A stretch of DNA of 14,331 bases from Syntrophaceae bacterium (lineage in GTDB: Bacteria > Desulfobacterota > Syntrophia > Syntrophales > UBA5619), in assembly GCA_919902745.1 (NCBI GenBank), contig CAKKRN010000090.1, positions 1 through 14,331 of the forward strand. The letters run 5' to 3'. Under the pieces are notes generated by a model. That model was not told the DNA's origin. It made no database searches and worked only from the letters and a program-made list of their open reading frames with translations. Position 1 is the stretch's first letter. Each line of letters starts with the position of its first letter. Below, one piece after another: positions 125 to 12,183 of this stretch. The translations under genes were made by a program, and so were the position numbers.

Positions 125-2359
125 ATGCCATTGAATAAGATGCTTCAAAAATGGTTCGGCGGCTACGACCAGATCACCGGAGATCTCTGGGGTGGTTTTG
201 CCGCCATGCTGGTGGCGCTGCCCGCGGCCATCGCCTACGGGATTGCCGTCTATGCGGTGTTGGGACCGCAATATGTCGCCTATGGTTCCATCGCCGGCAT
301 CATCGGCGCGATTGCACTCGGCATGATTGCCCCCCTGCTTGGCGGATCACCGCGGCTGATTTCCGCACCTTGCGCCCCTGCCGCCGCCGTTATGGGCGCC
401 CTGGCAGCAGAGATCATAAAGACGGGTAATGTCTCGCCCGCAAACGCCGTCGTTGTTCTGATGTTTGTGGGACTTCTGGCAGGGATGCTCGAACTCGTTT
501 ATGGGGCGCTGGGAGGCGGACGTTTTATCAAGTACATTCCCTATCCGGTTGTCTCCGGTTATCTCAGCGGTGTCGGTGCGCTGATTATCCTGAGCCAGTT
601 CCCGAAACTTTTGGGTTTGCCCAAAGGGATCTCCGTCATGAGCGGGATGTGGACGCCTTCTCATTGGCAGGGGCCTGGGATACTGGTCGGTGTAATCACG
701 ATGGCCGGTGTCCTGGCGGCGCCGAGGCTGGTCAGGGCGGTTCCCGCCGTTATTATTGGTCTTGCTGCAGGCTTACTCGCCTATTTCGGGATCAGTATTT
801 TCATGCCGGAGTTGAGAACGCTCACCAACAATAACTTGGTCATCGGCCCGCTGTTTCAGGAAAACAGCTCCTTCACCACGATGCTCAAGGGCCAATGGAG
901 CGCCTTTTCCGATCTGTGGATGGCGGATATCGCTTCCCTTCTTATGCCGGCGGTGACGCTATCGGTGCTGCTCTCGATCGACACGCTGAAGACCTGCGTG
1001 GTCATGGACACCATGACCCGCAGCCGTCACAATGCCAATCGCGAGCTGATGGGCCAGGGTTCGGCGAATATCGTGTCCGCCATGCTCGGGGGCATGCCCG
1101 GGTCGGGCACAATGGGGCCGACCCTTGTGAACATTGGAAGCGGCGGACGGACAAGACTTTCCGGTTTCCTGGAAGGGATCTTTGTGCTGATCGCCTTTCT
1201 GATGCTGGCCTGGTTCATTGCCTGGCTCCCCATCGCCGCCCTCGCCGGAATTCTGATGGTGGTCGCCTGGCGAATGATCGATTTTCGCAGCATCCTCCTT
1301 CTGAGACAGAGGGCCACCGTACTCGATTTCTGCGTGATCGCATTGGTCGTGATCACTGCGGTTTACTTCAACCTCATTGCCGCCGCAGGTGTGGGGATGG
1401 GGTTGGCCATCCTATTGTTCATCCGGGAGCAGATCCGGGGCTCGGTCATCCGGCGCAAAGTTCACGGAGACCAGATATCGTCCAAGCAATACCGGGTTCA
1501 GGAAGAAAAGGAGCTGCTGCTGCAGTACGGGAGCTTGATAACCGTTGTCGAACTGCAGAGCAGCCTGTTTTTCGGCACGACGGACCAGTTGTTTACCGAG
1601 ATCGAACCGGACCTCAAGCGGAGCCGGTTTTTGATCCTTGACATGCGGCGTGTACAGTCCGTCGATTTCACCGCCGTCCATATGTTGGAGCTGCTTGGAG
1701 ACATTTTGAAGGAGAGGGAGGGCTATCTCATATTCAGCCATCTCTTGCCGACGCTCCCCACGGGACAGAACCTCGAGGCCTATTTCAAACAGCTCGGCCT
1801 TTTGAAACTCGGCCGAAACGTAAAGATTTTCCTGACCCTGGATGAGGCGATGCAATGGTCGGAGGATCAAATCCTGGATGAGCATCGTGAGACCCTGGCG
1901 GGGAGGGACCAGCCGCTTGCGCTGGCTGAAATCGAATTGTTGCGGGAATTTGATAATGTGAACGGCCTGCCTTTCATGAAGGCCTGCATCGTCGAGCTCT
2001 CTTTCAAAGCGGGCGAAACACTTTTTCGCAGGGGGGATACCGGCGACGAGCTGTTCCTTATCCGCAGGGGCATCGTACGGATTGTTCTTCCACTGGAAAA
2101 TAACCGCTATCACATTCTCACCACCTTCGGCCGCGGTAACTTTTTCGGCGAGATCGCTTTTCTCGATCATGGTGCACGATCGGCAAACGCGGTTGCGGAT
2201 ACAGATACCGACGTTTTTGTAATCTCACGTTTCAGATTCGATGAGGTTTCTCGATCCGACCCTACGCTGGGTGTGATGCTTTTCGCCCGGCTGGCCCGAG
2301 GTCTTGCCATGCGTCTCCGCTATACCGACGCTGAGCTTCGGGCGCTGAAAGAGGCGTGA
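125..2359 (+). CDS. SulP-family anion transporter with STAS and cyclic-nucleotide-binding domains
   Basis: This 744-residue inner-membrane protein is a probable anion:proton or anion:sodium symporter of the SulP/SLC26 family; substrates in this family include sulfate, bicarbonate and dicarboxylates. Residues 20-435 form the many-helix transport core, with the family-like stretch GGSPRLISAPCAPAAAVMG near 73-91. Residues about 470-575 form a cytoplasmic STAS domain. Residues about 618-735 form a cNMP-binding domain with the phosphate-binding cassette FGEIAFLDHGARSA at 674-687. Its E676 and R685 are spaced as in PKA/HCN-type sites, so cyclic nucleotide binding is plausible. The start is set by GGAGGGG at 116-122, just before the ATG. 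The next gene follows after 130 bp with its own likely promoter, so co-transcription is uncertain. The substrate cannot be read from sequence; the family and domain assignments are secure. Confidence 0.93.
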   Translation: MPLNKMLQKWFGGYDQITGDLWGGFAAMLVALPAAIAYGIAVYAVLGPQYVAYGSIAGIIGAIALGMIAPLLGGSPRLISAPCAPAAAVMGALAAEIIKTGNVSPANAVVVLMFVGLLAGMLELVYGALGGGRFIKYIPYPVVSGYLSGVGALIILSQFPKLLGLPKGISVMSGMWTPSHWQGPGILVGVITMAGVLAAPRLVRAVPAVIIGLAAGLLAYFGISIFMPELRTLTNNNLVIGPLFQENSSFTTMLKGQWSAFSDLWMADIASLLMPAVTLSVLLSIDTLKTCVVMDTMTRSRHNANRELMGQGSANIVSAMLGGMPGSGTMGPTLVNIGSGGRTRLSGFLEGIFVLIAFLMLAWFIAWLPIAALAGILMVVAWRMIDFRSILLLRQRATVLDFCVIALVVITAVYFNLIAAAGVGMGLAILLFIREQIRGSVIRRKVHGDQISSKQYRVQEEKELLLQYGSLITVVELQSSLFFGTTDQLFTEIEPDLKRSRFLILDMRRVQSVDFTAVHMLELLGDILKEREGYLIFSHLLPTLPTGQNLEAYFKQLGLLKLGRNVKIFLTLDEAMQWSEDQILDEHRETLAGRDQPLALAEIELLREFDNVNGLPFMKACIVELSFKAGETLFRRGDTGDELFLIRRGIVRIVLPLENNRYHILTTFGRGNFFGEIAFLDHGARSANAVADTDTDVFVISRFRFDEVSRSDPTLGVMLFARLARGLAMRLRYTDAELRALKEA

Positions 2360-2370
2360 GACCTATTTTC

Positions 2371-2399
2371 TTGACGGAAAAAAAAGGATAACGTATCGT
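2371..2399 (+). promoter_or_regulatory. Candidate sigma70-like promoter for pap
   Basis: TTGACG (2371-2376) and TATCGT (2394-2399) are separated by exactly 17 bp, in an AT-rich stretch unlike the surrounding coding DNA. The -10 box matches TATAAT in only four of six positions, so this is a moderate call. It lies about 90 bp before the pap start, leaving an AT-rich leader. Confidence 0.4.
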
Positions 2400-2476
2400 T
2401 ACAATCCGAAATCCCCAAAATTCAATTTATAAATGACGTCCTTTACTATGTTTAAGTCAAATTCCGCCACCATTCT

Positions 2477-2486
2477 TAGGAGGTGA
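2477..2486 (+). promoter_or_regulatory. Near-perfect Shine-Dalgarno of pap
   Basis: TAGGAGGTGA is complementary to the 16S rRNA 3' end over nine consecutive bases. It ends three bases before the ATG at 2490, fixing that start and predicting strong translation. Confidence 0.85.
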
Positions 2487-2489
2487 ACC

Positions 2490-3968
2490 ATGTTTGAATC
2501 GGCAGAACTGGGGCACAAGATCGACAAGGAGACGTATGATCGCGAGGTTCCAAAATTGCGTGAGGATCTCCTCAACGCCCAGTATGATCTTTCGCAACAG
2601 AGGCGTTTTCCCGTGATCATCGTGGTCGGCGGGGTCGATGGGGCCGGGAAGAGCGAGACGGTCAATCTGCTCAACGAATGGATGGATCCCCGTCATATCC
2701 AGACGCACGCATTTCCCGACCCCTCCGACGAAGAGCGTGAGCGGCCCTACATGTGGCGTTTCTGGCGTTCGCTGCCGCCCCGCGGCAAGATCGGCATTCT
2801 TTTCGGGGCCTGGCATTCGGCGCCGATTGTCGAGCGGGTTCTGGGCCGATCAAAATCCGCAAAGCTCGACCAGTCTATTGAGGAGATCATCCGCTTTGAG
2901 AAAATGCTGACTGACGAAGGTGCGCTGATCCTCAAATTCTGGTTTCATCTCTCCAAACAGCAGCAGAAGAAACGTCTGAAAGCGCTTGAGAAGGATCCCA
3001 AGACGCGTTGGCGGATTACCGAGACGGATTGGGAGCGTTTTAAAAGCTATGACCGATTCCGGAAGGTGTCCGAGTATTTTATACGACAGACCAGCTCGAC
3101 GGAAGCGCCCTGGATCGTTGTCGAGGGTGTTGACCATCGCTACCGAAGTCTGACCGTCGGCAGGCTGCTGCTCAACGCAATGCGCGAGCATCTCGCCGAA
3201 AAGCCGGCCGCCCGATTGCCGGAAAAGAAGCCTCCGATCCAGCCCCGCCTCGACGGCAAAGACGTGCTGACATCGCTCGTTCTCACGAAGGCCGTCAGCA
3301 AGGAAAAGTACGACAGGGAGATGGAAACCTGGCAGGGACGTCTCAACCTGCTCACGCGCCATCCGAAGTTTAAAGAGATATCGGTTGTCTTTGTTTTCGA
3401 AGGCCAGGACGCCGCGGGGAAGGGCGGTGCAATCCGGCGGGTGATGCAGGCTCTCGATGCGCGGGTCTATCAGGGCATTCCGATCGCTGCGCCCACCGAA
3501 GAAGAACGCGCCCAGCCTTACCTGTGGCGATTTTGGAGAAACCTGCCGCGGAGTGGCCGGTTCACGATCTTCGACCGTTCCTGGTACGGCCGCGTACTGG
3601 TCGAACGTGTCGAAGGCTTCTGTTCCGAGAACGATTGGATGCGCGCCTACTCCGAGATCAACGACTTTGAAAGTCAACTCGTGCTCAATGGGACGGTTCT
3701 TGTGAAGTTCTGGCTGCAAATCAGCAAGGAGGAGCAGCTCAAACGTTTCCGGGAGCGGGAGAAGACCTCTTTCAAACGCTTCAAGATCACCGCCGAGGAC
3801 TGGCGAAACCGCCAGAAGTGGAAGCAGTATCACCAGGCGGTCTGTGATATGATCGATCGAACCTCCACCGAGATCGCGCCCTGGACCCTGGTAGGGGCGA
3901 ACAATAAATACGATGCGCGTATCAAGGTTCTCCGAACGATCGTCGGCAGCATCGAATCTGCGTTGTGA
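2490..3968 (+). CDS. pap: Polyphosphate:AMP phosphotransferase (two-domain PPK2, class II)
   Basis: This 492-residue cytosolic enzyme is predicted to transfer phosphate from polyphosphate to AMP, giving ADP. Two PPK2 (P-loop kinase) domains are fused, the architecture and length known for Pap. The N-terminal domain (about 10-235) keeps a Walker A-like GGVDGAGKS (47-55) but has LFGAWHSA (104-111) at the place of the catalytic segment. The C-terminal domain (about 265-490) has the full set: FEGQDAAGKGG (303-313), PYLWRFWRNLP (343-353) and FDRSWYGR (361-368). In characterised two-domain family members the C-terminal half carries activity, so the N-terminal half is probably structural or regulatory here. 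The gene converges on the ppk1 operon, pairing polyphosphate synthesis with its use. A GDP/ADP-directed activity (class I PPK2) is less likely given the duplication. Confidence 0.92.
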   Translation: MFESAELGHKIDKETYDREVPKLREDLLNAQYDLSQQRRFPVIIVVGGVDGAGKSETVNLLNEWMDPRHIQTHAFPDPSDEERERPYMWRFWRSLPPRGKIGILFGAWHSAPIVERVLGRSKSAKLDQSIEEIIRFEKMLTDEGALILKFWFHLSKQQQKKRLKALEKDPKTRWRITETDWERFKSYDRFRKVSEYFIRQTSSTEAPWIVVEGVDHRYRSLTVGRLLLNAMREHLAEKPAARLPEKKPPIQPRLDGKDVLTSLVLTKAVSKEKYDREMETWQGRLNLLTRHPKFKEISVVFVFEGQDAAGKGGAIRRVMQALDARVYQGIPIAAPTEEERAQPYLWRFWRNLPRSGRFTIFDRSWYGRVLVERVEGFCSENDWMRAYSEINDFESQLVLNGTVLVKFWLQISKEEQLKRFREREKTSFKRFKITAEDWRNRQKWKQYHQAVCDMIDRTSTEIAPWTLVGANNKYDARIKVLRTIVGSIESAL

Positions 3969-3974
3969 GTAAAA

Positions 3975-4005
3975 ATAGTGCTGAGTGCTCAGCACTCAGC
4001 ACTAT
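3975..4005 (-). terminator. 31-bp perfect palindrome; intrinsic terminator for the minus-strand operon
   Basis: Fifteen-base arms flank a single central base (3990). On the minus strand the hairpin runs directly into five T residues (3975-3971), the layout of a rho-independent terminator. On the plus strand no T-run follows. It starts 7 bp after the pap stop, so minus-strand transcripts from the ppk1 operon would stop before entering pap as antisense RNA. The 9-mer CTCAGCACT occurs three times here (3988, 3995, 4009), suggesting the hairpin arose from a short iterated unit. It may also stabilise the 3' end of the pap transcript. Confidence 0.65.
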
Positions 4006-4055
4006 GTCCTCAGCACTTTATATAAAAATGTCCTTCCCTGTATCGCATGGCGCAG

Positions 4056-4144
4056 AATGTAGGGTGCGTTAGGCGAATGCCGTAACGCACCGTAAATGGA
4101 TCGGATATCAATGTGGATTACGCTCCGCTAATCCACCCTACATT
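4056..4144. repeat. Double-hairpin intergenic repeat with 11-bp inverted ends
   Basis: AATGTAGGGTG (4056-4066) is inverted as CACCCTACATT (4134-4144). Inside are two hairpins: GGTGCGTTA/TAACGCACC (4063-4071 with 4083-4091) and GTGGATTA/TAATCCAC (4113-4120 with 4129-4136). The inner stems share bases with the outer arms, so a closed stem and the two hairpins are alternative folds. Sequences of the type 'gtagggtgcgtta...taacgcacc' and 'gtggatta...taatccaccctac' recur in intergenic DNA of many bacteria; that recollection is general knowledge, not a search. It is likely a small non-autonomous or REP-like element resting between convergent genes. It encodes no protein. Confidence 0.7.
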
Positions 4145-4183
4145 TTCATCCTTCGTTGTGCCCGCACCGGGCATGGGAGTTAG

Positions 4184-5779
4184 TTAGCAAGCAAGTGCGG
4201 AGGCAAGGGTTTTTCGCAAGGCGTCTTGATCGAACTGTTTCCAGATTTTATGGAATTCGGTCTGCTTGGTGCGCGCGATCTCACCCTGAAGTTCGTACAG
4301 CTCCCCAAGCATGAACAACAGCCGCGGATCCAGCACGTTTCCTTTCCATCTCTTCAGCAGGCGATCAATGAGCGCACGCGTGAAGACGGTGTCCTGCAGA
4401 TCACCAAGACAGTCCTGGATTTTCACCACCTCCTCGATGAGGGGGTGCAGCAAATCGCCGTAAGCCGGGCTGACAAATTCCAAGGCATAGCGCAGCTTCT
4501 TGAACTGGATGCGAAGCCTGTGGAAATTCTTGAGATCCGGTTTTGCAAGCACACGACTCCCCTGCGCGATCACGGCGTCGAACCGCGCGGTGATGATGGG
4601 AGGCGCGGCCGCGTTCACTGGGGCCGGTGCAAGAGGCGCCGATGGATTTTTTGCCGGTGTCCTCCCGGCAAAGGCCAGGAGCCGGGAGTGGAGCAGACGC
4701 CAGCGCGCGGAGGCGAGTCCCGCCTTGAGCTCCGCGAAGAGGGCGAGCCTCTCTTCCGCGATATGCTGCATGAGGGTGTTGATGCTGCTTCGCGGCGCGA
4801 TCCCGAGGGTCTGTTTGAAACGGGGGAGGTTGAGCAGGAATACGTCGAGATCCCGTACGCCGCCGAAGAGCGAGCCAAGCCAGAGAAGCTCTTCCGTAAA
4901 ATAGGAACCGGTCTTCTCCGGGATCGCCCCACCGAACAGTCGGATCAGGGATCGCATTCGACGGGTCGCGACACGGGCCTGGTGTACGAATTCGGTGTCG
5001 ATGTCCGTAAGGACGCCCGGAATGTTCTCATCGAGGCGGTGAATCTGAAAAGCGATAATTTTCTGCACCGTCCGGTCGAACCGGTCGTCGATTTTTACCT
5101 GGAGGAGGGGAGGGGGATTCTTTGCGGGGAATACGACGCCGAGGCGCTCGATGGCGGTCTCGAGTTTCGATTGACCGGAGGGGGTGAAACCCATGGCGCC
5201 GGTCAGGTGTTGTTTGAGCGTGTCGAGTTCCGCCGGGGATCCTTTGCGAAGTTCCGCTTCCATCTCGAAAAGGCGGCGGGCCCTCCGGGGTTTGTTTTGA
5301 CCGCGTGCCAGGAAACCCGTAGAGTCAAAAACAAGTTCGATCCGTGCGTTACCCGGGGTTACGACCATGTAAGGTTGCCGCTCGGTGCGCACGGTGATCT
5401 GCCCGATCAGCCGACGCGGGTAGATGATCTCGGCGATTTCCATCTGGATCTCTTTGACCGGCGCCGCCGTCGGATCGAGGATGCTGCCCTTCACCTCGAT
5501 TTCGATCTCCCGCCGTTCCGCCCGTCCTCCCTCGATTTTCCCAATGCTTTTGAGCGTATATAACACTTTCTCATTTGCACGTCGTAAGCGCAGCGATAAT
5601 CCATGCCGGAAAAGCCTCCAGTCGAAGGTGTCCAGATAGAGGTCCTCCTGGCGGATCGTCCGTTGCCGGCGGACCCGATAACCTTTCGACCCGAGCAGGT
5701 CCAGGACGGCTGCGTTCGCTCCCGGCTCCGGCAATAGAAATTTGTATTCGATTTCCTTCGTTTCGGTTGGGGTCTTCAT
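4184..5779 (-). CDS. CYTH-CHAD domain protein (inorganic polyphosphate / triphosphate related)
   Basis: This 531-residue soluble protein joins an N-terminal CYTH triphosphate-tunnel domain (about 8-215) to a C-terminal all-helical CHAD domain (about 235-520). The CYTH signature ExExK is E9-x-E11-x-K13, followed by many alternating basic and acidic residues lining the tunnel. CHAD hallmarks are the basic helices VHQARVATRRMRSLIRLF (265-282) and FHRLRIQFKKLRYALEF (419-435), with H266 and H420, and QDCLGDLQD (455-463). CHAD domains are known to bind inorganic polyphosphate, and CYTH enzymes hydrolyse triphosphates or tripolyphosphate. A proline/alanine-rich stretch (374-395) is probably a loop inside CHAD. 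The gene is last in the ppk1 operon, its ATG overlapping the preceding stop by 4 bp, with AGGGA upstream. The polyphosphate role is inferred from domain and context; the catalytic substrate is unknown. Confidence 0.92.
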   Translation of the reverse strand: MKTPTETKEIEYKFLLPEPGANAAVLDLLGSKGYRVRRQRTIRQEDLYLDTFDWRLFRHGLSLRLRRANEKVLYTLKSIGKIEGGRAERREIEIEVKGSILDPTAAPVKEIQMEIAEIIYPRRLIGQITVRTERQPYMVVTPGNARIELVFDSTGFLARGQNKPRRARRLFEMEAELRKGSPAELDTLKQHLTGAMGFTPSGQSKLETAIERLGVVFPAKNPPPLLQVKIDDRFDRTVQKIIAFQIHRLDENIPGVLTDIDTEFVHQARVATRRMRSLIRLFGGAIPEKTGSYFTEELLWLGSLFGGVRDLDVFLLNLPRFKQTLGIAPRSSINTLMQHIAEERLALFAELKAGLASARWRLLHSRLLAFAGRTPAKNPSAPLAPAPVNAAAPPIITARFDAVIAQGSRVLAKPDLKNFHRLRIQFKKLRYALEFVSPAYGDLLHPLIEEVVKIQDCLGDLQDTVFTRALIDRLLKRWKGNVLDPRLLFMLGELYELQGEIARTKQTEFHKIWKQFDQDALRKTLASALAC

Positions 5780-6510
5780 GGCATTTCCCTTTTTTTGTTC
5801 CCTTCACTGAAATCTGCAGACAAGCCCCGGGGAAGCGACGATCGTTCAATCGCCTGGAGGAGCCCCGCTTTCGGATAGTCGAAACGGATGATCCGCGCTG
5901 AAGGCGGCTTTCCCTGCTGCATCTTCACCAGTGCGTACGCCGGTCGCGGATCGCCGTCGACCGGCTGTCCTGTGGATCCGCAGTTCACGACGAGGGCGCC
6001 TGCCACACGCCTCACAAAAGGGATATGCGTATGGCCGCAGACGAGGATGTCCAATCTTGCTCCGGCAAGCTTCTTTTTCAGGCCGTACGGCGTAATGCTG
6101 GGGTAAATGGCGTCTTCCGCCGACACCGGGCTCCCATGCACCATGAGGAGCTCAAATCGGCCCGCCAGCGTCTCGCGATGGAGGGGGGGAAGAGAAGCTA
6201 AAAACCTCTGCGCGTCGCCGTCGATATGCCTGCATGTCCACTCTAAGATTTTCCATTTGCCCGGCTTCATCCCTTCCTTCAAATCGGCGAAGCGATGGAG
6301 GGCAGAGAGCACTTTGGCATCGTAATTGCCGATAATCGTGGTGATTTGCTTTCCGGCAAGAATGCGGCAAACCTCGCTGGGGAACGGGCCGTATCCGGTC
6401 AGATCGCCTGCGCAGTATATCTTCTCCGCCCCTCGAACGCGGGCATCGGTCAGGGCCGCCTCGAGGGCGGGCAGGTTCCCGTGGATGTCGGAAATGAACG
6501 CTACGAGCAT
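5776..6510 (-). CDS. Calcineurin-like metallophosphoesterase (YfcE/MJ0936-like)
   Basis: This 244-residue cytosolic protein is predicted to bind two metals and hydrolyse phosphomono- or diesters. Visible motifs in order are SDIHGN (7-12), GDLTGYGP (35-42), GNYD (61-64, where GNHD is commoner), VHGSP (124-128) and GHTH (159-162). Together they supply the usual Asp, His and Asn metal ligands. A short C-terminal tail after 210 is low in motif content. The gene overlaps the upstream HD gene by 10 bp and the downstream CYTH-CHAD gene by 4 bp, so translation is coupled. No strong Shine-Dalgarno precedes its ATG, which fits coupling. Related families act on cyclic nucleotides, diadenosine polyphosphates or model diesters; the context makes a polyphosphate- or nucleotide-related substrate reasonable but unproven. 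Confidence 0.9.
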   Translation of the reverse strand: MLVAFISDIHGNLPALEAALTDARVRGAEKIYCAGDLTGYGPFPSEVCRILAGKQITTIIGNYDAKVLSALHRFADLKEGMKPGKWKILEWTCRHIDGDAQRFLASLPPLHRETLAGRFELLMVHGSPVSAEDAIYPSITPYGLKKKLAGARLDILVCGHTHIPFVRRVAGALVVNCGSTGQPVDGDPRPAYALVKMQQGKPPSARIIRFDYPKAGLLQAIERSSLPRGLSADFSEGNKKREMP

Positions 6511-7151
6511 AACCGAAAGACCAGCTCGCGATCGGCCATCCGTGCAAGAAGTCCTGACTTTTTCTCCGCGCCGCTGATCTCCCCGGCGGATTCGCCTCGG
6601 GCTGCAAGCGAGATCGTCAGGCGCTTTGGACTGAGTTCACAGTCCCCAATTCGGACCGCGCATCTGTGTGTGCAGTCGAGTCCATCGGCGACACGCAGGA
6701 TCGCAGCAAGCCAGGAGACGAGGGTGCGCTCTTTCTTTTTAAGGGCGGCAAAGTCTTTGTGCCGCGAGACGTCCGGTTCCGCCTTGTTGTGGTAGCGGGC
6801 GATCAGCGCGCAAAGCGTGCGCTCATCCTCCGTGAGACCCGGCAGCTCGGCCTCCAGGATCATGTCTCGGCTATGCTTGTGATGACCTCCATCCGTTGTT
6901 CGCAACCAGCCGATATCGTGGAGCATGGCCGTGATCTCGAGAAGAAGCCGGTCCCGAGCCCCCAGGCCGTGGAGCTCCATAAGCTTGTCGAAGAGCGCAA
7001 GCGCCAGTTTTGTCACCTGTGCCACGTGATGCCGGTCGGAGTTGGTCGCATCGGCCAGCCGCTTCGCGCTTGCGAGGGGCTCGCCGATCTTCTTGACCGC
7101 CTTCGTCACGGACCTCTTCACTACCGTTTTTGCCTTTGTCTTTGGGATCAT
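6501..7151 (-). CDS. Stand-alone HD protein resembling the Ppx/GppA C-terminal domain
   Basis: This 216-residue cytosolic protein has HD-superfamily features: DRHH (39-42), AMLHDIGW (75-82, H78 and D79), GHHKHSRDMI (89-98), ARYHNK (118-123) and ILRVADGLD (151-159, D156). The order and wording of these motifs match the helical C-terminal domain of exopolyphosphatase/guanosine pentaphosphatase (Ppx/GppA). The N-terminal actin-like phosphatase domain of those enzymes is entirely absent. Residues 1-22 are instead a Lys/Arg-rich leader. The ATG overlaps the ppk1 stop by 4 bp and AAGGA lies 8 bases upstream. In this operon it may bind or process polyphosphate or a related nucleotide; it could equally be a metal-dependent phosphohydrolase with another substrate. 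The HD assignment is firm, the Ppx-like reading good, the activity unknown. Confidence 0.85.
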   Translation of the reverse strand: MIPKTKAKTVVKRSVTKAVKKIGEPLASAKRLADATNSDRHHVAQVTKLALALFDKLMELHGLGARDRLLLEITAMLHDIGWLRTTDGGHHKHSRDMILEAELPGLTEDERTLCALIARYHNKAEPDVSRHKDFAALKKKERTLVSWLAAILRVADGLDCTHRCAVRIGDCELSPKRLTISLAARGESAGEISGAEKKSGLLARMADRELVFRLCS

Positions 7152-9322
7152 TTCTTCTTTCCTTTCTTCTTGCCGATCTGGCGGACGAGTTGAGAGTACG
7201 GCGGCGATTTCACGCCGCCCTTTCGTGCGATAGCAATGAGAGCGCTCTGGCTTCGAACCGGTTTGTCGTTCGGATTGCGTCTGACGCGCTGGTAACTACC
7301 GTCGGGTTGCATCAGTCGCGTTTTCACATTGTCTGTCAGGTAGGTCATCAAAATTTCGTCGATGATCCTTGTCTTCAATGCCTGGTCCTGAATCGGGTAG
7401 AGAATTTCGGCCCGCTTCTTGAAGTTGCGCGGCATCCAGTCCGCGCTTCCCGAATAGATCTCCGGTTCGCCGCCGTTGTGGAAATAGTAGATGCGGGAAT
7501 GCTCAAGGAAGCGGTCGAGGATGCTCCGAACGCGGATGTTGTCGCTGACGCCGGGGATGCCCGGGCGCAGGCAGCAAATACCGCGTACGACGAGATCGAT
7601 CCGCACGCCTGCCTGGGAGGCCCGGTAGAGGGTGCGAATGGTGCGCTCGTCAATGAGGGCGTTCATTTTCGCTATGATCCGGCCCGGTTTCTTCGGGGAT
7701 GATTTTTTGATCTCCCGTTCGATGAGTCCGATGACGCGATCCTGGATGTTGACGGGGGCAAGGATTATCTTCTTGAAGCGCGATTCGATGTTTTCCGGCT
7801 TCAGCATGTCGCCGCCCGTCCAGGAGTTGAAGCCGGTGATGACATTGAAGAGCGAAGAGACGTCGTTGCCGATGCCGGGATCTGCGGTCATGAGTCCGAC
7901 ATCCGTGTAGATCTGGGCGGTCAGGGAGTTGTAGTTTCCAGTGGAGAGGTGGACGTAACGGCGAAGCTGCTTCCCCTCCCGCCGGACAACCAGAGTCGCC
8001 TTGCAGTGGATTTTCCACTTTACAAAGCCGTACACGGGGTTGATTCCCGATTTCACCATCTGGTGCGCAAAATCGATGTTCTTCTCCTCGTCGAAGCGCG
8101 CCTTGATCTCGACGACGGCGGTCACCTGTTTGCCGTTCTCGGCCGCCCGGCAGAGGGCCTCGACGATCGGCGAATCCCGGTCAATCCGGTAAAGCGTCTG
8201 CTTGATTGCCAGAACATCCGGATCTTCCGCGGCGCTGTTGATGAAGTCAACAACCACGGCGAACGAATCATAGGGGTGGTGAATCAGGACGTCGCCCTCC
8301 CGGATGACGCTGAAGATGTCGCTATTGCCGGCAAGGCGCTTCGGGATGCGCGGGTTGAACGGCTCGTCCAGGTGAATCGGGGAAACGGGCAGATCGTAAA
8401 GCGGCAGCAGACCGCAAAGGTTCAGCGGACCGGGGATACGATAGACATTCGTCTCATCCATTTCCAGGTGTTTGCAGAGGATTTGCAACATCTTTTTCGG
8501 GATGCCTTCCTTGACCTCGAGTCGGACGGCGATTTTGTTGGAACGGTCCTTGAGCTCCGCCTCGACGGACTCCAGGAGATCCAGCACGGAATCTTCATGG
8601 AGATCGTAGTCCTGGTTGCGGGTCACGCGGAAGGGAACGCAGTTCGTGATTTTCATCCCGGGGAAAAGGCTGCCGATGCTCGACCGGACCAAATCCTCGA
8701 GCAGAACGAAATGGTGCTCTTTCTTTCCCTTCTCGTCCATGATCCGGATAAGGCGCTGGAGCACCGAAGGCGCCTCGACAAATGCGTACGGCTGGGCGTC
8801 CATATTTGTCGGCGATTCCTTGAACATGACCATCAGGTTTAGCCGCAGGTTGCCCAGAAACGGGAAAGGGTGGCCGGCATCGACCGCAAGCGGCGTCAGG
8901 ATGGGGAAGACCTGGCTTTCAAAGTAGTCGTTAAGCTTATGTATTTCCTTCTTGTCCAGCGAATCGACCGCATGGATTTCGATTCCGGCCTGCTTCAGGA
9001 GGGGGAGGACCGTGTTCTGCAAGCATTGGTACTGCTGGGCTACGTATATGCGGGCTTTACCGGCGATTGCATCGATCTGTTGCTTTGGGAGCATACCGCT
9101 TTGGTCGGGATCGATCACGCCTGCCTGGACCAGTCGCGCGAGAGCGCCGACGCGGACCTGGAAGAATTCGTCGAGGTTCGAGCTGAAAATCGAGATGAAT
9201 TTCAGTTTCTCAAGGGCGGGCGTTTCCGGGTCCTCGGCTTCTTCGAGCACCCGGCGATTAAACTCGATCCAGGAAAGTTCGCGGTTCAACAGCAAGGAAG
9301 GACCCTTCAGGTTGCTCTCCAT
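7148..9322 (-). CDS. ppk1: Polyphosphate kinase (PPK1)
   Basis: This 724-residue enzyme reversibly polymerises the gamma-phosphate of ATP into inorganic polyphosphate, usually at the inner membrane face. It begins with the family-typical NRELSWIEFNRRVLEEA (13-29) and FSSNLDEFFQVRVG (46-59). The catalytic half shows ARFDEEKNI (408-416), KIHCKATL (437-444) with the probable autophosphorylated H439, HLSTGNYN (458-465), TDVGLMTAD (473-481), EHSRIYYF (607-614) with the second active-site histidine H608, and SADWMPRN (626-633). Length fits the family. An in-frame extension reaches 9448 but its TTG is the promoter -35 box itself. The ATG at 9322 has AAGGTG 9 bases upstream, so it is chosen. The C-terminus is strongly lysine-rich. 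It is the first gene of a four-gene overlapping operon. Confidence 0.97.
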   Translation of the reverse strand: MESNLKGPSLLLNRELSWIEFNRRVLEEAEDPETPALEKLKFISIFSSNLDEFFQVRVGALARLVQAGVIDPDQSGMLPKQQIDAIAGKARIYVAQQYQCLQNTVLPLLKQAGIEIHAVDSLDKKEIHKLNDYFESQVFPILTPLAVDAGHPFPFLGNLRLNLMVMFKESPTNMDAQPYAFVEAPSVLQRLIRIMDEKGKKEHHFVLLEDLVRSSIGSLFPGMKITNCVPFRVTRNQDYDLHEDSVLDLLESVEAELKDRSNKIAVRLEVKEGIPKKMLQILCKHLEMDETNVYRIPGPLNLCGLLPLYDLPVSPIHLDEPFNPRIPKRLAGNSDIFSVIREGDVLIHHPYDSFAVVVDFINSAAEDPDVLAIKQTLYRIDRDSPIVEALCRAAENGKQVTAVVEIKARFDEEKNIDFAHQMVKSGINPVYGFVKWKIHCKATLVVRREGKQLRRYVHLSTGNYNSLTAQIYTDVGLMTADPGIGNDVSSLFNVITGFNSWTGGDMLKPENIESRFKKIILAPVNIQDRVIGLIEREIKKSSPKKPGRIIAKMNALIDERTIRTLYRASQAGVRIDLVVRGICCLRPGIPGVSDNIRVRSILDRFLEHSRIYYFHNGGEPEIYSGSADWMPRNFKKRAEILYPIQDQALKTRIIDEILMTYLTDNVKTRLMQPDGSYQRVRRNPNDKPVRSQSALIAIARKGGVKSPPYSQLVRQIGKKKGKKK

Positions 9323-9331
9323 TGTTGCTTT

Positions 9332-9337
9332 CACCTT
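9332..9337 (-). promoter_or_regulatory. Shine-Dalgarno deciding the ppk1 start
   Basis: AAGGTG on the minus strand sits 9 bases before the ATG at 9322. It supports this start over the longer in-frame reading, whose first codon lies in the promoter. Confidence 0.75.
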
Positions 9338-9419
9338 CTTGGGGGATACGGTTGTTTTCCCGTTCAAATGCGGATGGCCTCGCCCATTTGCCGGATGATA
9401 ACTACCTTTCCGGGAATAA

Positions 9420-9448
9420 ACTATAAAGAGATGGCAACTTTGTGTCAA
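9420..9448 (-). promoter_or_regulatory. Near-consensus sigma70-type promoter of the ppk1 operon
   Basis: On the minus strand TTGACA (9448-9443) is followed after exactly 17 bp by TATAGT (9425-9420), matching eleven of twelve consensus positions. Transcription would begin near 9413, giving a leader of about 90 nt. That leader contains short inverted pairs (TTCCCG 9357-9362 with CGGGAA 9411-9416; CAAATG 9365-9370 with CATTTG 9385-9390). No PhoB-box pattern was recognised nearby. Confidence 0.8.
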
Positions 9449-9462
9449 GGGCTATCTGATCT

Positions 9463-9515
9463 GCTGTCGGATAGGCGAACGGACGGCGATGGCGTGGATG
9501 GACTATTCCGACAGC
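9463..9515. repeat. Inverted repeat overlapping the kdsD stop, just upstream of the ppk1 promoter
   Basis: GCTGTCGGATAG (9463-9474) pairs with CTATTCCGACAGC (9503-9515), twelve base pairs with one bulged base, around a 28-nt GC-rich loop. One arm contains the kdsD stop codon and the other ends 15 bp from the ppk1 -35 box. No T-run follows, so it is not a textbook terminator. It could be a 3'-end structure, a partial terminator or a binding site. Confidence 0.5.
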
Positions 9516-10495
9516 GTCATCTTCAGGGTTCCCCCCCGGCCCAGGATGTCATGGAGGTGGACATACCCCTTGATGCGGTTCTCATCGTCGGTGACTACGA
9601 GTGTGGTGATCTCCATCCGCTGCATCGTTTCGACGGTCAGGGCTACGGAGATGTTATCGCGAATGGACTTGGGGGAGCGGGTCATGAGGGCATCGATCCG
9701 TTGATTTCGGAAATCGAGGCCGGTGCGGACGAGACGGCGGACATCGCCGTCGGTCAGGATCCCGAGAAGCTTGTCCGTGACGTCGGTGACGAGAACGAAC
9801 CCCTTGTTCGTTTCATCCATCACCCGGATGGCGTCGAGGAGGGTCGCACCGATATCGACGCGCGGGATCTGGCTGCCGCAAATCATGACGTCTCGAACTT
9901 TGGCCCGGAGTCGGGAGCCGAGGCTTCCGCCGGGATGAAATTTGAAAAAATCCTTCTCCTGGAAATTCCGGCGATGGATCAGCGCAACGGCCAGCGCGTC
10001 ACCCATTGCCAGGGCGGCTGTGGAACTTGATGTCGGCGCGAGACCGAAAGGGCAGGCCTCTCTGGCCACCCCGACATCGATCACAATGTCACAGGAGCGG
10101 GCCAGGGTCGAGGAGAGGTTGCCGGTAAAGGCGATGCGCGGCACGCCGATGGCCCGGATGCTGTCGACGATCATGTTCAGTTCGTCGGTTTCACCGCTGT
10201 TGGAGATGGCGACCAGCACATCGTCTTTTGTAACGATCCCCAGATCCCCGTGGAGGCCCTCGACGGGATGGAGGAAGAGGGCCTGCGTCCCGGTACTGGT
10301 CAGCGTCGCCACCATCTTTCTGCCGATCAGCCCCGATTTGCCGATCCCGGCGACGATCACCCGCCCCGTGCAGCGGTAGATCAGTTCGACCGCCCGCGAA
10401 AAATCCTCTCCCACCCGATCGATCAGTTGAAGAATGCTTTCCGCCTCAAGCTGGAGCACTTCCTTCGCCTGTCGGATGGACTGGTCTGTCTCCAT
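9503..10495 (-). CDS. kdsD: D-arabinose 5-phosphate isomerase (KpsF/GutQ/KdsD family)
   Basis: This 330-residue cytosolic enzyme interconverts ribulose 5-phosphate and arabinose 5-phosphate, the first step towards KDO for lipopolysaccharide. The SIS domain (about 40-175) has AGIGKSGLIGRKM (49-61), SNSGETDE (98-105) and REACPFGLAPTSSSTA (145-160). FHPGGSLG (186-193) follows. K53, E105, E146 and H187 match the positions of the E. coli KdsD catalytic residues with a constant offset of six. Two CBS domains follow (about 200-325), giving the full three-domain length. A TTG two codons upstream is in frame, but the ATG at 10495 has GGAGAGG six bases upstream and is preferred. No other KDO gene is in the window. 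KpsF or GutQ paralogues cannot be excluded by sequence alone. Confidence 0.93.
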   Translation of the reverse strand: METDQSIRQAKEVLQLEAESILQLIDRVGEDFSRAVELIYRCTGRVIVAGIGKSGLIGRKMVATLTSTGTQALFLHPVEGLHGDLGIVTKDDVLVAISNSGETDELNMIVDSIRAIGVPRIAFTGNLSSTLARSCDIVIDVGVAREACPFGLAPTSSSTAALAMGDALAVALIHRRNFQEKDFFKFHPGGSLGSRLRAKVRDVMICGSQIPRVDIGATLLDAIRVMDETNKGFVLVTDVTDKLLGILTDGDVRRLVRTGLDFRNQRIDALMTRSPKSIRDNISVALTVETMQRMEITTLVVTDDENRIKGYVHLHDILGRGGTLKMTLSE

Positions 10496-10501
10496 GAACA
10501 A

Positions 10502-10508
10502 CCTCTCC
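10502..10508 (-). promoter_or_regulatory. Shine-Dalgarno deciding the kdsD start
   Basis: GGAGAGG on the minus strand ends six bases before the ATG at 10495. It abuts the alternative TTG at 10501 directly, which rules that codon out in practice. Confidence 0.75.
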
Positions 10509-10563
10509 GCCGATTCGAACCGGCAATACCTTTATGAATGCATTCAACTTTTACCGTGGGATG

Positions 10564-10592
10564 ATGCTATCAGAAATCTGCGGTCCTGACAA
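10564..10592 (-). promoter_or_regulatory. Candidate sigma70-like promoter of kdsD
   Basis: On the minus strand TTGTCA (10592-10587) and TAGCAT (10569-10564) are 17 bp apart. The -35 matches five of six positions, the -10 four of six. The predicted start near 10557 leaves a leader of about 60 nt. It is divergent from, and about 25 bp away from, the promoter on the other strand. Confidence 0.5.
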
Positions 10593-10615
10593 GGCGGATT
10601 TTGACTGCGCCGGTA

Positions 10616-10644
10616 TTGACACCCCATCGGACATTCCCTATAAT
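10616..10644 (+). promoter_or_regulatory. Perfect-consensus sigma70 promoter of the transglutaminase-ABC cluster
   Basis: TTGACA (10616-10621) and TATAAT (10639-10644) are separated by exactly 17 bp, a twelve-of-twelve match. Transcription should begin near 10651, about 45 bases before the ATG at 10696. Such a site implies strong basal expression unless it is repressed. Confidence 0.85.
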
Positions 10645-10695
10645 CCGTCCGGAAATGCGGATCATTGTGTGCAAGTTCTTTCCCGGGGGCGGAAG

Positions 10696-12183
10696 ATGAG
10701 AAAAAGTAGAAACCGTTGGCACTGGTTTGCGGGAGGGTGCGTGATATTGATCTTCACGCTTCTCCTTGCCGTCCGCCTCGTCGGTCTGCCCAAACCATTT
10801 TCCAAAGCTGCGGAAACCCTTTCCCGTCAGCCGGGGGTTGTCCCCGTCGGCGAGTTCTGGATGAATATCACCCAGGCCGGCCGGAAGATCGGCTATGCGC
10901 AGCGTAACTACTCCCGGACGGAAGACGGGTTTCGCTTCTCCGAGAATATCTTCATGCGGATCAATACGATGGGGATTGTACAGCCCTTGACTGTCCGGAC
11001 GGCGGCGGAGCTGAAGCCCGACCGGACGCTCGCTAACTTTCAATTCGATCTTGGGTCGAACCTTTTCAAGTTCAGGGCACGGGGAGCGGTTGAGGGGAAG
11101 AAGCTGACCGTTCGCATCGGCGGACCGGCCGAGGAAAAGATCAGTGTCATCGCCTTGGCGGAGCCGCCCTATCTGGGCGGCGGCATTTTAGAGTCCGCCG
11201 GAGCAGGGGGACTCCAGCCGGGGGAGGGGAGGACATTCCCGGTCTTCGATCCCGCCTCCCTGGAGCAGAGGCCGGTCCGGATTACCCTTCTCGGCGAAGA
11301 AGAGATGACGATAATGGGAAAAAGCCGGCGGGCCCGAAAACTTTCCGTCGATTTTATGGGGATGAAGCAGATCGCCTGGGTCGATCCGGACGGATCGGTG
11401 CTCCGGGAGGAGGGTATCCTGGGGATCGCGCTGGAACGGGTTACGCGCGAGGAAGCGCTGGCGGGGCTTGAAGGCGCGGTCAGCGCGGATCTGACGGAAA
11501 TCGCCTCCATCCCCTCGTCGAAACCCATTGAGGGCGCCGCGGCCTTGAGAGTCCTGAAGATCCGCCTGGAGGGTCTTCAGCAGGGCTCTTTTTTTCTCGA
11601 CGGCGACCGTCAGATCTATCGGAACGGTGTGCTCACGATCCGGCGCGAATCTTCCGTTGATCCTTCCGCCCGTTCAGGCGGCGCTGCCGGCGACCTGGGG
11701 GCTTTTCTCAAACCCACGCCCTTTATTCAGTCGGATCACCCGAAGATCCGGCAAAAATTGGCCGAAATCGTCGGTCCGGGCGATCCGGACGGCGTGAAGG
11801 CCGACAAACTTGTGGCCTGGGTCCACAAGAACCTGGAGAAGCGTCCGGTCCTGTCGGTTCCGAACGCGCTGGAGACGCTGGAAAACCGCGTCGGGGACTG
11901 CAACGAACACGCCGTCCTGCTGGCGGCCTTTGCGCGAGCCGCCGGGCTGCCGGCTGACGTGGAGGCCGGCGTCGTGTATCTGCGCGGCCGTTTTTTTTAT
12001 CACGCATGGAACGTCCTCTACCTCCGGGACCGGGGCGGCTGGGTGACGGCCGACGCCGTCCTGGGACAGATGCCGGCGGACGTGACCCACATCCGTTTTG
12101 TCCGCGGCGAAGCCGACCGCCAGCTCGATCTGGTGGGGCTGATCGGCCGCTTGAAGCTGGAGATCCTGGAGATGGAACGATGA
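10696..12183 (+). CDS. Membrane-anchored transglutaminase-like protein
   Basis: This 495-residue protein has one N-terminal membrane segment (about 10-31) after a basic start, so the bulk should face the periplasm. The C-terminal part carries a transglutaminase/protease-fold core with the Cys-His-Asp triad: C402 in RVGDCNEHA, H436 in FYHAWN and D453 in WVTADAVLGQ. Residues about 50-330 are a beta-rich-looking region of no family I recognise. A longer in-frame reading begins at 10534, but it would run through the consensus promoter. The ATG at 10696, which makes a clean signal anchor, is therefore preferred even though its Shine-Dalgarno (GGGGGCGGAAG) is imperfect. Its stop overlaps the ATPase ATG by 4 bp, so it is co-expressed with an ABC exporter. 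The substrate is unknown; peptide cleavage or cross-linking in the envelope is possible. Confidence 0.85.
   Translation: MRKSRNRWHWFAGGCVILIFTLLLAVRLVGLPKPFSKAAETLSRQPGVVPVGEFWMNITQAGRKIGYAQRNYSRTEDGFRFSENIFMRINTMGIVQPLTVRTAAELKPDRTLANFQFDLGSNLFKFRARGAVEGKKLTVRIGGPAEEKISVIALAEPPYLGGGILESAGAGGLQPGEGRTFPVFDPASLEQRPVRITLLGEEEMTIMGKSRRARKLSVDFMGMKQIAWVDPDGSVLREEGILGIALERVTREEALAGLEGAVSADLTEIASIPSSKPIEGAAALRVLKIRLEGLQQGSFFLDGDRQIYRNGVLTIRRESSVDPSARSGGAAGDLGAFLKPTPFIQSDHPKIRQKLAEIVGPGDPDGVKADKLVAWVHKNLEKRPVLSVPNALETLENRVGDCNEHAVLLAAFARAAGLPADVEAGVVYLRGRFFYHAWNVLYLRDRGGWVTADAVLGQMPADVTHIRFVRGEADRQLDLVGLIGRLKLEILEMER

Follow-up and report, generated by a model that had tools for sequence, protein, structure and literature searches.

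Several gene clusters built around polyphosphate (polyP) kinase are already known, including ppk1-ppx, ppk-CHAD-Nudix and ppk-CHAD arrangements. In the E. coli-type ppk-ppx operon, ppk1 is followed by a gene with homology to the C-terminal part of Ppx. According to the accessible text of one report, the genes most commonly found after ppk are those for PPX/GppA, Nudix, MutT and histidine phosphatase proteins, and the Streptomyces ppk-pptA(CHAD)-Nudix operon places ppk alongside genes for a CHAD protein and for a hydrolase whose substrates may include dinucleoside polyphosphates (PMC8003754). The accessible text on the Acidithiobacillus folD-ppk-parA-CHAD cluster places a CYTH-CHAD gene near ppk1 (PMC10892726). 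Here we describe a polyP gene cluster in a 14,331-nucleotide stretch of DNA (contig CAKKRN010000090.1, hereafter the window) from a Syntrophaceae bacterium, in which ppk1 is joined by genes for a free-standing HD protein, a metallophosphoesterase (MPE) and a CYTH-CHAD protein, with a convergent pap gene. We propose, with slightly more credence than doubt, that this locus pairs polyP synthesis by Ppk1 with a CHAD-tethered HD/MPE hydrolase module for polyP turnover, which would be something other than a plain substitute for Ppx.

As in the E. coli-type operon, the gene after ppk1 shows Ppx C-terminal homology, but here the HD protein stands alone without an ASKHA domain, and MPE and CYTH-CHAD genes are added. 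The Streptomyces operon has a Nudix gene instead of the HD and SapH-like MPE genes, and CYTH is not named in the accessible text of that report. Likewise, the terms 'HD domain' and 'phosphoesterase' are absent from the main text on the Acidithiobacillus cluster. SapH (Spr1479), an asymmetric Ap4A hydrolase, is 24% identical to the MPE, but its genomic setting differs. The genes of the present locus are as follows.

2490..3968, plus strand: pap, polyphosphate:AMP phosphotransferase (tandem PPK2), convergent with the operon
4184..5779, minus strand: CYTH-CHAD protein, 531 aa, with the CYTH ExExK motif (EIEYK) and a CHAD domain
5776..6510, minus strand: MPE, 244 aa, with a SapH/PH1004-like fold (from Pfam, invariant residues and predicted fold)
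6501..7151, minus strand: free-standing HD protein, 216 aa, homologue of Ppx domain III plus the C-terminal domain
7148..9322, minus strand: ppk1, polyphosphate kinase 1, 724 aa from the probable start ATG at 9322

A sequence-only reading of the window had proposed a polyphosphate island with the minus-strand order ppk1-HD-MPE-CYTH-CHAD and a convergent pap gene. Pfam and NCBIfam confirm the domains, and the coordinates bear out the gene overlaps of 4 bp (ppk1 ends at 7148, HD starts at 7151), 10 bp (HD ends at 6501, MPE starts at 6510) and 4 bp (MPE ends at 5776, CYTH-CHAD starts at 5779). Rfam matches and tRNA genes were looked for at the locus, and none was found. The host assembly comprises 1.84 Mb in 323 contigs and is estimated to be 85.5% complete; judged by the HD protein, its closest named relatives are Syntrophales/Syntrophaceae metagenome-assembled genomes (MAGs).

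The roles of Ppk1, PAP, CHAD and CYTH are known from their families. Specifically, Ppk1 scores 855.4 bits against TIGR03705 (cut-off 465.85) and carries four PP_kinase Pfam domains. PAP scores 753.5 bits against TIGR03708 (cut-off 547.65) and contains two PPK2 stretches; against a second model, NF050016, it reaches 425.5 bits, under the cut-off of 800. The YgiF-type CYTH-CHAD protein exceeds the Pfam cut-offs for both PF01928 and PF05235, and its EIEYK sequence fits ExExK, which we take to be the CYTH motif. The earlier suggestion that PAP feeds AMP back to ADP presupposed AMP-forming acyl-CoA synthetases in the host. That premise is supported by 11 genomic matches to PF00501, a family that covers these synthetases and other adenylating enzymes, and an AMP load in the host is therefore plausible. 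CHAD binds polyP according to the accessible text of a report that also speculates that CHAD renders fused enzymes processive, and that describes TTM domains, i.e. CYTH, as short-chain polyphosphatases (PMC6537752).

The linkage of these genes was assessed in the host and 60 relatives (61 genomes). At 1e-3, PF17941 has a match in 32 genomes and the MPE in 19. We counted ppk1 only at PF17941 E < 1e-70, which leaves 13 genomes (rejected matches have E > 1e-13 and lie in frames of 175-264 aa), and MPE only at E < 1e-90, which leaves 12. PPK2 was searched to 1e-20, and Ppx was counted only over the PF02541 cut-off. The HD gene is found in 13 of the 61 genomes, and ppk1 and CHAD occur at the counted level in those same 13 and in none of the other 48. 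Strong MPE matches occur in 12 of the 13 (all except G011) and PPK2 also in 12 (all except G005, which is 74% complete), and neither is present in the other 48. The co-occurrence of HD and ppk1 has no exception in either direction (Fisher p 1.5e-13, uncorrected for kinship); by genus, both are present in 7 of 35, and no genus has one without the other. Within the host genus, HD is present in 6 of 11 genomes, and because of this patchiness the gene set looks as though it is gained or lost as a unit. One relative, G022, has two ppk1-HD loci (L006 and L014; L020 and L021).

A wider collection of 54 loci comes from a profile scan of genome contigs with the HD alignment, with loci picked by LHDIGW- and ARYH-type patterns. 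It comprises 24 free HD proteins, 13 CHAD-HD fusions, two CHAD-MPE-HD fusions, one MPE-HD fusion and 14 loci with Ppx-HD only. The stretch includes ppk1 in 16 of the 24 free-HD loci, 13 of the 16 CHAD- or MPE-fused loci and 1 of the 14 Ppx-HD-only loci (several contigs are short), and a CHAD gene is nearby in 5 of the last 14. Our fusion calls agree with Pfam in all four loci scanned (L037, L041, L032 and L050; the contig of L041 ends within CHAD). The order ppk1-HD-MPE-CYTH is not confined to the Syntrophales: a Dehalococcoidia MAG (L030) has it together with CHAD, and a CSSED10-310 MAG (L031) has it with no CHAD match seen. An Anaerolineae MAG (L038) has the order ppk1-MPE-HD. The sequence-only reading was to be refuted if the HD and phosphoesterase families showed no repeated association with ppk1 and CHAD genes; such an association is found both in the 61 genomes and beyond them.

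In Chloroflexota, the phylum of L066 by its record, 82 of 301 genomes have an HD match at 1e-10. The best 30 loci of this phylum include 29 with a free HD, 19 of them beside CHAD (one is L066 again), one in a ppk1-HD-MPE arrangement and one beside a Ppx N-terminal part; the remaining eight have no CHAD, ppk1, MPE or Ppx N-terminal part within about 1.5 kb. The CHAD gene by the free HD in L080-L104 from this phylum is often two adjacent or overlapping open reading frames (ORFs) that both match CHAD, which suggests tandem or split CHAD genes.

The HD protein scores 64.8 bits against PF21447 (Ppx-GppA_III; cut-off 27.3) and also matches the HD family, with an HD-CE match below cut-off, and a Pfam scan finds no PF02541, the ASKHA catalytic domain, in it. 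It matches the C-terminal half of Ppx and, in its predicted structure, shares the fold of domain III and the C-terminal, polyP-binding half of Ppx/GppA across about 160-200 residues. In contrast to that half, it is free-standing, holds a separate place in the tree and retains an intact HD motif. The metal motif residues are H42, H78-D79, H121 and D156; H42, H78, D79 and D156 are invariant in 27 aligned rows, giving the pattern H...HD...D. All full free-HD rows have the intact motif, whereas E. coli PPX has LHEVG at that place. Because the C-terminal half of E. coli Ppx serves as a polyP-binding probe, according to the accessible text of PMC2096623, homology links the HD protein to polyP. The earlier statement that the HD protein and the MPE lack any assigned role in polyP biology must be revised for the HD protein on this account.

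A quick tree, in which long branches occur, loci L001-L015 are left out and sampling is biased by the locus-picking patterns, places 27 Ppx-HD rows on one side of a branch, apart from 70 other HD rows (support 81, not starred). Given this separation, we do not favour a recent origin of the HD gene by truncation of a ppx. In four loci (L035, L062, L067 and L093) a short Ppx N-terminal gene adjoins the free HD gene, as if Ppx were split, and L029 has such a short gene and a free HD gene with ppk1 between them (Pfam was checked for L029 only).

Pfam assigns the MPE to Metallophos_2 (PF12850), and residues D8, H10, D36, N62, H125, H160 and H162 are invariant in 22 aligned rows. These residues conform to DxH / GD / GNxD / H / GHxH, which we take to be the metal-binding pattern of calcineurin-like phosphoesterases. 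In its predicted structure, the MPE adopts the fold of SapH (Ap4A hydrolase) and is PH1004-like. The yeast endopolyphosphatases Ppn1 and Ppn2 are metallophosphoesterases.

The absence of a canonical Ppx, noted earlier for the window, extends to the host genome, in which no PF02541 is found; since the genome is 85.5% complete, a Ppx could lie in the missing part. PF02541 over cut-off is lacking in 10 of the 13 HD genomes, of which seven (G001, G004, G010, G011, G013, G039 and G046) are at least 90% complete. Three of the 13 have it over cut-off, as does one genome among the other 48, which makes 4 of 61 in total; a fifth genome, G040, has a match below cut-off. The sole ppx over cut-off among the 11 host-genus genomes searched, a 607-aa frame on a short piece (G006 C375, L015/L070), could be a stray contig. 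Twelve of 22 genomes reached via HD loci have PF02541, seven in short frames (297-372 aa) and five in frames of 521-694 aa. A full-length Ppx-HD frame lies beside a CHAD- or MPE-fused HD in 10 loci (L032, L037, L041, L054, L059, L060, L063, L064, L068 and L069), an arrangement that occurs in archaeal and Phycisphaerae loci; elsewhere among the fused-HD loci, Ppx is in broken frames in L057 and cut by the contig end in L061. The coexistence of both forms in 10 loci weakens the earlier suggestion that the HD protein or the MPE substitutes for Ppx, and makes a simple stand-in unlikely.

We place the HD protein and the MPE on the polyP polymer because they share an operon with ppk1, co-occur with it and take part in fusions. 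The direct support consists of this gene order, co-occurrence and fusion, together with the predicted folds and intact metal motifs. In the module we propose, Ppk1 would make polyP, and CHAD, probably with the HD protein, would dock onto the polymer or granule. The HD protein and MPE would then cut polyP or its phosphorylated by-products at metal-ion active sites, CYTH would finish short chains (tripolyphosphate), and the convergent PAP would drain polyP into the conversion of AMP to ADP. We infer that the HD protein and the MPE are catalytic, act on polyP and work as one complex. A bolder form of this proposal, which we offer only tentatively, is that CHAD, HD and MPE constitute an unrecognised prokaryotic polyphosphatase complex, either encoded by separate genes or produced as a single CHAD-MPE-HD polypeptide. 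The MPE and/or the HD protein would cut polyP, perhaps internally, and serve ppk1 organisms that lack classical Ppx or carry it alongside, and the HD protein would be an unfused, still metal-competent relative of the Ppx binding domain.

A number of observations weigh against a polyP hydrolase module. Action on polyP is a prediction for both the HD and the MPE family. The MPE was not found in the ppk1-HD-CHAD loci L025, L026 and L029, nor in G011. Among 198 genomes sampled across the host phylum, a free HD occurs in one, the host itself; 12 others have HD in frames of 507-615 aa, taken as Ppx by size alone, and 9 of the 19 ppk1 genomes in this sample have no HD match, while 10 do. Motif conservation in the 54 loci is partly selected, because the loci were chosen by LHDIGW- and ARYH-type patterns. 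Moreover, many loci come from closely related or identical genomes: L016-L024, L027 and L028 appear from contigs, scores and coordinates to be the same genomes as relatives in the 61-genome set, L015 and L070 denote a single place, and so do L066 and L075. Such kinship would suit neighbourhood inheritance without any joint function, but we find this scarcely credible, as the genes are patchy in the host genus yet occur together, and they recur across phyla and as fusions.

Of the structures with a named activity, that of SapH, an asymmetric Ap4A hydrolase/phosphodiesterase, is closest to the MPE. It points to nucleotide substrates, which also weighs against our proposal. The HD protein and the MPE could have a house-cleaning role, destroying over-phosphorylated nucleotides (p4A, p5A, Ap4A and Ap5A) that arise as side products of polyP kinases, in which case CHAD would merely keep the two proteins at the granule. 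We consider this role doubtful, given that the nearest relative of the HD protein is the polyP-binding half of Ppx and not a nucleotide-specific HD enzyme, and that the HD protein is fused to CHAD in 15 loci. The HD protein might instead be non-catalytic, sensing polyP by binding it or gauging its chain length for Ppk1, much as the C-terminal half of Ppx does for Ppx, with the MPE acting on a small regulator. The HD gene does directly follow ppk1 in 15 of the 16 loci L016-L031 (the L022 contig begins inside HD), and in DrPPX the N-terminal part has a wider cleft once the C-terminal part is removed, according to the accessible text of PMC11234463. However, full free-HD rows keep the complete metal motif that E. 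coli PPX lacks, and we regard a purely regulatory role as unlikely. Finally, the HD protein, alone or with a short Ppx encoded elsewhere, could perform the exopolyphosphatase job in lineages without full Ppx. This would accord with the 10 of 13 HD genomes that lack PF02541 over cut-off, the short Ppx frames in seven of 22 genomes and the four loci with adjacent Ppx N-terminal and HD genes. Nevertheless, the HD protein has no ASKHA domain, the tree sets Ppx-HD apart, and fused HD accompanies full-length Ppx-HD in 10 loci and broken-frame Ppx in L057, all of which render such replacement highly improbable. The CHAD-tethered HD/MPE hydrolase module is the reading that we retain.

Two further elements flank the operon.

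9420..9448, minus strand: sigma-70-like promoter TTGACA-17-TATAGT (11/12), upstream of ppk1
3975..4005, minus strand: terminator-like 31-nt palindrome with a T-rich tail, past the last gene of the operon

The ppk1 start first assigned to 9448 is probably wrong, in that this position is the TTG that forms the -35 element of the promoter-like site (9448-9420). The true start is probably the ATG at 9322, which is preceded by a GAAGGTGAAAG stretch, sits just ahead of conserved Ppk1 sequence and gives the 724-aa product. A scan of positions 2300-10700 yields five promoter-like sites, compared with a mean of 2.4 in shuffles, and the ppk1 site is the second best of the five. Because it falls between kdsD and ppk1, the operon may have its own promoter, although a consensus match is not evidence of function. 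The kdsD gene (arabinose-5-phosphate isomerase, 9503-10501) is directly upstream of ppk1 on the same strand, as it is in 7 of the 54 HD loci (L016-L020, L023 and L024). Further upstream, a perfect TTGACA-17-TATAAT on the plus strand (10616-10644) lies within the listed start of a transglutaminase-like ORF (10534-12183), and this ORF may therefore start later.

The perfect palindrome, with its minus-strand T tail, lies between the convergent pap and CYTH-CHAD genes, as does an inverted stretch resembling a REP element, seen by eye at about 4060-4140. The terminator scan gives 10 sites compared with a mean of 8.6 in shuffles, and for this reason the palindrome is weak as lone evidence for a terminator. 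A gene for a SulP transporter with STAS and cyclic-nucleotide-binding domains (125-2359) lies upstream of pap on the same strand, an arrangement also seen in L018 (7856-9592), and the two genes are possibly co-transcribed.

In our search of the non-subscription literature we recognised no description of the HD protein or the MPE with ppk1 or CHAD, although one may have been published all the same. In many haloarchaea, genes for polyP synthesis are said to lack counterparts for its breakdown, and a 2026 paper describes an unidentified breakdown activity, dependent on Mn or Co, in Haloferax volcanii, according to its accessible text (PMC13318637). Among the relatives studied here, a Ppx catalytic domain is not found in 10 of the 13 genomes that have strong ppk1. 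Because they travel with the polyP cluster and are fused to one of its parts in other microbes, the HD protein and the MPE are good candidates for missing polyP-handling enzymes. As two small, conserved neighbours or fusion partners of the polyP-binding CHAD, they are also direct and cheap ones, and the free HD family bears on the origin of Ppx and on the original role of its C-terminal half.
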